From assembly GCF_007197995.1 (NCBI RefSeq), contig NZ_VKKH01000011.1:1-50656 (forward strand): DNA of 50,656 nt, read 5' to 3'. The notes beneath the pieces were generated by a model. The model searched no databases. It saw only the letters and a program-made list of their open reading frames with translations, and was not told where the DNA came from. This stretch comes from Aliiglaciecola sp. M165 (GTDB taxonomy: Bacteria > Pseudomonadota > Gammaproteobacteria > Enterobacterales > Alteromonadaceae). The position numbers and the translations under genes are program-made. Shown one piece after another: positions 17,287 through 18,387 of the stretch; positions within the stretch are counted from its first letter, which is position 1; every line of letters begins with the position of its first letter.

Positions 17287-18387
17287 ATGAAACTGGACAA
17301 AGTCCAGATACAACATTTTAGAAATTTGCAAGATGTTGTGGTTCTCCCATCACCAAATCTAAATTTTATTTTTGGCCAAAATGGCAGTGGAAAGTCTTCT
17401 TTTTTGGAGGCTTTGCACTACCTTGGTTTTGGTCGTTCCTTTCGAACGAGTAAGCAAAAAAATGTTATTAACAACGAAGAGCTGTCCTTCAGTATTTTTT
17501 GCCAGTTGAGTGTAGATGCGGAAATTCTCAAACTGGGTATTTCTAGGAATAGAGAAGATTTAGTAACAGTTAGTATTAATGGTGAGAAGTCTAATCGTTT
17601 GTCTGAATTTGTAAGTCATGTTCCTGTACAGATTTTTACACCTCAAAGCGCGGATGTGATTTTAGGCTCGCCTTCACTACGGCGACGTTTTATTGATTGG
17701 GGATTGTTTCACGTGGAACAATCGTTCTCTAAAACCAGTCAAGAGTACGCAAAGCTGCTCAAGCAAAAGAACGCGTTATTGAAGAAAATAGGTAAAAACT
17801 ACTCATCTGATGACGCTCATCAAATGCATTTCTGGGACAAACAAATTGTTCGGGTAGGGGAGATCATTACTAATATGAGATATTCCTATCTAGAAGCCAT
17901 TATGGGGCATATAAATGACAATTTAATGCATTTTCTACCTGAGTTTTCCTTCGAAATCTCGTATCATAGGGGGTGGGAAAAAGATGCGGCGCTACAAGAA
18001 GCAATTTTTAGAAAAGAAGAAAAAGATATTAAAAATGGATTTTTAAGTGTGGGCCCTCACAAAGCAGATCTCAAAATAAAGAGTCAGGGAATTGACGTGG
18101 CAGAATTATTATCTCGAGGACAACTCAGGATGCTAGTAGCCGCACTGCAATTGGCTCAAGTACAATATCTTAGTTTGAAAACGTCAAAGTCTGTCGTCTT
18201 CTTATTAGATGACATAGGCGCCGAATTAGATGAAGTTAAACGGCAGCTTTTTATAGACAGACTATTACTAGAAGATACGCAGCTTTTCATTACGGCAATC
18301 GAAAAATCTCAATTGTCGTTCATTGATAAATACAAAAATAAGAAAATGTTTCACGTGGAACATGGCCATATGAGAGAGGAGAACTAA
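17287..18387 (+). CDS. recF: DNA replication and repair protein RecF
   Basis: RecF is an ABC-type ATPase that, with RecO and RecR, loads RecA at single-strand gaps. In the 366 residues Walker A is GQNGSGKSS at about 30-38. The ABC signature region lies in [18 protein letters not shown] near 277-294 and Walker B in [14 protein letters not shown] near 305-318. The family opening [10 protein letters not shown] is present at 8-17. Two exact 16-bp parS sequences lie inside the gene, at 17705-17720 and 18347-18362. Both are read in the same frame as FHVE, so the codons are constrained by ParB binding as well as by the protein (inference). gyrB begins four bases after the stop. Confidence 0.96.
17705..17720. 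promoter_or_regulatory. parS: parS site 1 (ParB-binding), inside recF
   Basis: The sequence is TGTTTCACGTGGAACA. Its reverse complement, TGTTCCACGTGAAACA, fits the bacterial parS consensus TGTTNCACGTGAAACA exactly. It is a 16-bp near-palindrome with the CACGTG core. It encodes FHVE within recF. A parB-parA pair is present in the same window. Confidence 0.9.
18347..18362. promoter_or_regulatory. parS: parS site 2 (ParB-binding), at the 3' end of recF
   Basis: This is the same 16 bases as site 1, TGTTTCACGTGGAACA, in the same orientation and reading frame. It lies 642 bases from site 1 and 30 bases before gyrB. It encodes FHVE near the RecF C-terminus, a poorly conserved tail, so the sequence is probably kept for ParB rather than for the protein (inference). 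Confidence 0.9.

Follow-up and report, generated by a model that had tools for sequence, protein, structure and literature searches.

The recF gene of Aliiglaciecola sp. M165 carries the same 16-base word twice, which raises the question whether this pair is a chromosomal centromere (parS) that happens to be written in a protein-coding gene, or whether the words owe their presence to the RecF protein, to regulation of the surrounding operon or to chance. The window analysed here comprises 50,656 nt (contig NZ_VKKH01000011.1) of a genome of 4.61 Mb in 29 contigs (G000). We conclude that the two recF words very probably represent the chromosomal centromere of this bacterium, as judged by several lines of sequence evidence. 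Binding by ParB and function in segregation would be expected by analogy with studied systems.

Table: Features of the Aliiglaciecola sp. M165 window that bear on the two recF sites (positions within the window)
Feature	Position	Strand	Remarks
parS place 1	17705..17720	+	TGTTTCACGTGGAACA inside recF, codes (L)FHVE(Q), F141-E144
parS place 2	18347..18362	+	TGTTTCACGTGGAACA near the 3' end of recF, codes (M)FHVE(H), F355-E358
recF	17287..18387	+	TIGR00611, 335 bits, over cut-off; hosts both sites
parB	291..1154	-	TIGR00180, over cut-off; ParB_N, HTH_ParB and ParB_C; presumed reader of parS
parA	1176..1961	-	AAA_31, 2.7e-66; adjoins parB; partner ATPase
dnaN	16164..17267	+	TIGR00663; directly upstream of recF
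gyrB	18392..20812	+	NF011501
Probable oriC	4572..5234	none	Upstream of mnmG; 4 DnaA boxes within 4928-5027; 14 GATC

The original prediction had reported two perfect copies in recF, sharing one codon frame and both read as FHVE, and all of this was borne out. It had also assigned them to the parS consensus. Each site differs from TGTTNCACGTGAAACA at one position on the plus strand and matches exactly on the minus strand, as TGTTCCACGTGAAACA, so that both fit the degenerate palindrome TGTTNCACGTGNAACA. The CACGTG core, which marks chromosomal parS and is known to matter from work on P. aeruginosa (PMC4368675, PMC5521831, PMC3909081), is intact in both 16-base palindromes. A third match to TGTTTCACGTGGAACA was found nowhere in the window, even with up to three mismatches allowed, in line with the earlier statement that no further exact copy exists there; searching the window with TGTTNCACGTGAAACA returned one extra place (8596-8611) with three mismatches. 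The whole-genome search that had been proposed alongside was run and gave two exact TGTTNCACGTGNAACA sites, both in recF, and no others. Since these are the only exact parS of the genome, the pair probably carries the whole centromere function. When up to two mismatches were tolerated, 16 places were counted genome-wide versus 24 for a reversed control pattern; beyond the pair, therefore, no site stands out. Two of the genomic places have a single mismatch, in the flank at G000:C5:8571 and with a broken core at G000:C29:462904. The former (TGTTTCACGTGGGACA, 8571-8586 of contig C5, outside the window) may be a weak third site or a chance match.

Could the two words simply be chance matches to the 14-base pattern? 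Apart from the shortness of the word, nothing speaks for such an origin, and its probability is practically nil: base composition predicts 0.02 exact sites per genome and 5e-6 in recF, and the same codons are conserved in most class genomes read. A shuffle test within the window (mean 0.49) is a weak guide, as both strands of a near-palindrome are counted, and the composition estimate and the conservation were used instead.

The gene setting agrees with a centromere. parB, parA, rsmG and mnmG form the usual block, followed on the plus strand by dnaA, dnaN, recF and gyrB. As had been claimed, parA and parB are present in the same window, 16 kb from the recF sites, and ParB has all three domains. 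The protein (P0002) contains the GERRWR and ENIQRE motifs and shows the R...G spacing of parS-specific ParB proteins: relative to its GKSR, an N follows five residues on, a G 28 on and an R 31 on (register set by eye, without structural alignment), matching the spacing of the parS-specificity residues (equivalents of R173 and G201) described in PMC7383237.

For the replication origin there are two candidates, and the stretch upstream of mnmG is likely the better one. It contains four exact TTATNCACA boxes versus one upstream of dnaA (14000-14708), and 14 GATC versus five; DnaA boxes with one mismatch are nearly equal in number (8 on the mnmG side and 7 on the dnaA side per 600 bases). In all nine relatives read, the matching mnmG-side stretch holds two to four exact DnaA boxes, and in two genomes (G026 and G030) the dnaA side equals or exceeds the richest 700-base stretch of the mnmG side in exact boxes. 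GC skew over the 50 kb window gave shallow minima near 5 and 13 kb, which probably follow gene strand and do not decide on oriC. The two parS sites lie 12.7 and 13.4 kb from the mnmG-side candidate and 3-4 kb from the dnaA-side one. The predicted distance of about 13 kb between centromere and oriC thus holds for both sites if oriC lies on the mnmG side, a placement that we infer. Between the likely oriC and dnaA, the minus strand (7598-8413) encodes an AAA+ ATPase matched by DnaC-like and DnaA models, all below the curated cut-offs. The dnaA frame itself begins with TTG at 14623, and the DnaA model matches only from residue 32 onwards (leaving 14623-14715 uncovered); the true start is probably further in.

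How far the arrangement reaches was read from 156 gammaproteobacterial recF genes, drawn from 59 genomes related at order level or closer, Aliiglaciecola sp. M165 among them, and from 97 further class members; left out were G256 and, of the 112 class genomes matched by RecF, the 23 with lower-scoring or split matches. Within one mismatch, the word is present at place 1 in 125, at place 2 in 136, at both in 119 and at neither in 14 of these genes. These counts take in some words with a broken core; demanding an intact CACGTG in addition, the numbers become 123, 131, 115 and 17, respectively, so that 139 of the 156 genes have an intact-core word at one place at least. All 36 genomes of the family, that of Aliiglaciecola sp. 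M165 counted, have the two places within one mismatch, with intact cores at both in 35 and exact words at both in 28, and 64 of the 65 exact parS found genome-wide fall in recF. Up to the order level (59 genomes, own included) the two recF places account for 83 of 101 exact genome-wide parS, and in 89 class genomes for 95 of 110. Ten of the 52 genomes with an exact parS up to the order level have at least one exact parS outside both recF places, which indicates that a location in recF is not obligatory. A frequent one-mismatch form has a final C for A, with proline as the next residue; the same word is given for P. aeruginosa parS1 (PMC4368675).

A scan of 80 loci from named genomes, biased towards loci that have the sites because place 1 falls within one of the two search peptides, gave both places within one mismatch in 44 loci, place 2 only in 17, place 1 only in one and neither in 18. 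Seven of the 17 place-2-only cases are Vibrio or Shewanella words whose core is broken (CATGTG). Both places are present in the loci read from Paraglaciecola, Glaciecola, Alteromonas, Idiomarina, Pseudoalteromonas and Halomonas, and in 15 of 20 Pseudomonas loci, the other five having a worn place 1 (GTC codon). On this comparative evidence the recF parS pair is ancient. Neither this age nor the P. aeruginosa precedent had been mentioned in the original prediction. Gene conversion between the sites, considered in view of the identical copies in Aliiglaciecola sp. M165, was rejected, as many genomes have different words at the two places.

The parS1 and parS2 sites of P. aeruginosa lie in recF (PMC5521831, PMC3909081), and parS2 by itself is reported to be sufficient for segregation (PMC4368675). 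Both sites of Aliiglaciecola sp. M165 likewise lie in recF. The P. aeruginosa words given in PMC4368675, TGTTCCACGTGGAACC for parS1 and TGTTCCACGTGGAACA for parS2, occur at place 1 and place 2, respectively, in 10 of the 20 named Pseudomonas loci, the rest having close variants, and they occupy the same recF codons as the sites described here. The recF pair is thus very likely homologous to parS1/parS2. The two systems differ in that P. aeruginosa has ten parS, four of them near oriC, whereas Aliiglaciecola sp. M165 has no exact parS besides the recF pair, and in the distance between the recF sites and oriC, which is about 4 kb in P. aeruginosa (PMC3909081) and putatively about 13 kb in Aliiglaciecola sp. 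M165. Sequence, uniqueness, the parA-parB setting, deep conservation and the place shared with named Pseudomonas all agree in supporting the identification of the pair as parS.

Place 2 ends only 30 bases before the start of gyrB, and in P. aeruginosa an excess of ParB reduces expression of genes in this region (PMC5521831). This would suit a different role, in which the two sites serve ParB as operators for adjusting expression of the dnaA-dnaN-recF-gyrB operon and no centromere is involved. In P. aeruginosa strains lacking parB or parS, however, genes adjoining the intragenic parS1 and parS2 are reported not to be raised (PMC5521831), and both sites persist in loci where recF has parted from gyrB or gyrB is inverted (L226, L254, L273); an operator role towards gyrB is accordingly less likely. 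The recF pair being the only exact parS in the genome also argues against regulation as its sole purpose, and we regard a mere operator function as very unlikely compared with a centromere. One of the displaced cases, L254, has recF apart from both dnaN and gyrB and retains both sites, with three further exact parS nearby. In a Succinivibrio metagenome-assembled genome (L231) both recF sites are gone and five exact parS are found at distances of 3.7-5.2 kb, measured from where the recF frame starts; in this lineage the centromere has apparently left the gene.

If the words are constrained as DNA, this should be visible in the codons. FHV[E/K] peptides at the two places are encoded by CAC-GTG-RAA in 257 of 264 cases, versus 16.6 expected from codon use in the remainder of the same recF genes. 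Among 64 conserved columns of the family alignment (residue common to at least 90% of the 36 genomes), V357, H356, V143 and H142 are the most codon-uniform (0.97 to 1.0, median 0.56); the F codons vary because the N position of parS permits it. DNA-level selection on the FHV[E/K] codons is clear.

The codon counts bear directly on the proposal that FHVE is a motif of the RecF protein itself and that conservation of the protein produced the parS words incidentally, since free synonymous choice would have left only about 17 of the 264 peptides parS-coded. Parts of the peptide do occur independently of the word. In recF from outside the class (the 12 best matches among 60 genomes), 11 genes have the F of place 1 and 11 the V of place 2. 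The other residues of place 1 are mostly missing from the same genes, which have neither H nor V there and E in a single case. E. coli RecF, with FHNE at place 1 and FTVE at place 2, keeps the first F-H and speaks against FHVE as an independent motif.

The fate of the peptide in genomes devoid of ParB is informative here. ParB was found in 53 of 60 genomes up to the order level, and an exact parS is present in 52 of these 53 versus none of the seven without ParB; the one exception is G037, whose ParB is distant (41% identity). Among genomes with recF read, FHV[EK] occurs at place 1 in 0/7 ParB-less versus 120/141 ParB-bearing genomes and at place 2 in 2/7 versus 127/141. One genome of this ParB-less set (G190) retains an exact parS, so its ParB may sit in an assembly gap. 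Loss is uneven across the residues: at place 1 the V is gone in all seven ParB-less genomes and H stays in five, as does F-H, while at place 2 the H is gone in five and V stays in five. Where ParB is present and the word is lost (at least two mismatches), FHV[EK] is kept in 3 of 23 cases at place 1 and 3 of 15 at place 2, a count that is partly circular because residue changes themselves make mismatches. All 11 named loci of Gilliamella, Xenorhabdus, Proteus and Pasteurellaceae have FHV[EK] at neither place and keep F-H at place 1; Enterobacteriaceae and Pasteurellaceae are described as devoid of par genes in PMC3909081, a statement that does not cover Gilliamella. A tree-corrected test of ParB presence against peptide comprised three independent pairs, mostly pointing in the same direction and too few for significance, so the plain Fisher values (4e-6, 4e-4) overstate the association.

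That the peptide can outlive the word is seen in ten Vibrio, Shewanella and Photobacterium loci, which retain FHVE at place 2 with CAT, and in five Pseudomonas loci, which retain FHVEP at place 1 with GTC. These cases, like F-H at place 1 and V at place 2, which often occur without the word, are what a protein motif would lead one to expect; the latter two suggest protein constraint or inertia for part of FHVE. As the source of the words themselves, however, a protein motif is scarcely tenable in view of the codon bias and the loss of V at place 1 and H at place 2. The RecF comparison suggested with the original prediction, namely whether FHVE is absent where parS is absent, went in part against the prediction: the full peptide is lost in most genomes that have lost the word, but FHVE is kept without the parS codons at place 2 in Vibrio, Shewanella and Photobacterium and at place 1 in the five Pseudomonas loci. 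The accompanying idea that the protein is shaped by the DNA site stands for the frozen codons and chiefly for V143 and H356, not for the whole of FHVE, parts of which are kept without the word; we narrowed our own claim in the same way on checking, and our confidence in a recF centromere did not change. The DNA site best explains the residues V143 and H356, judging from the alignments, whereas H142 and V357 are probably also wanted by the RecF protein, with the DNA freezing only their codons.

For a centromere in recF we propose that ParB dimers would load on each 16-base parS and slide out across dnaN-recF-gyrB, and that ParA would pull the ParB complex so that sister origins part soon after replication, most likely much as in P. 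aeruginosa, where ParB binds sites of this kind. The pair most likely arose in recF of an early gammaproteobacterium, although we can only infer the order of steps. As the recF genes from outside the class suggest, the words may have settled where RecF already had an F, with a V two residues further along at place 2; settling at sites already half compatible would account for the shared frame and for FHVE at both places. Later selection on the DNA word would then have frozen the H, V and E/K codons and brought in amino acids, mainly V143 and H356, that RecF could do without for its own purposes.

The chromosomal ParABS systems of Caulobacter and Bacillus use the same 16-base word and the same ParB family as Aliiglaciecola sp. 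M165. Their native parS are not known to be located at these recF codons. A parS-bearing transposon in Caulobacter has an insertion hot spot at recF-gyrB that is left unexplained in PMC5815017. It is conceivable, if rather doubtful, that recF-gyrB is a functionally favoured centromere seat and that the class-wide pair and the Caulobacter hot spot share one cause, for example if ParB loading were coupled to the supply of gyrase or to RecF activity at the freshly replicated origin.

A recF centromere as such is of a kind already known from P. aeruginosa; the pair described here is conserved, and its DNA sequence itself is under constraint. The class-wide reach and the codon evidence were not found in the literature searched, the main survey (Livny 2007) lying outside that search. 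The pair would be a clear case of a centromere that lies within a DNA-repair gene and has been retained in that position through a large part of a bacterial class, and the codon evidence one of a DNA function that dictates protein residues, here in RecF. As two sites seem to be the whole centromere in the family, they offer a small and easily recoded test system. Worn recF words in some ParB-less lineages may in turn provide a record of centromere loss: in two loci (L066 and L070, genomes G044 and G052), for which no ParB was found, place 2 holds a worn word with one core mismatch in G044 and three mismatches in G052, possible relics of a lost centromere.
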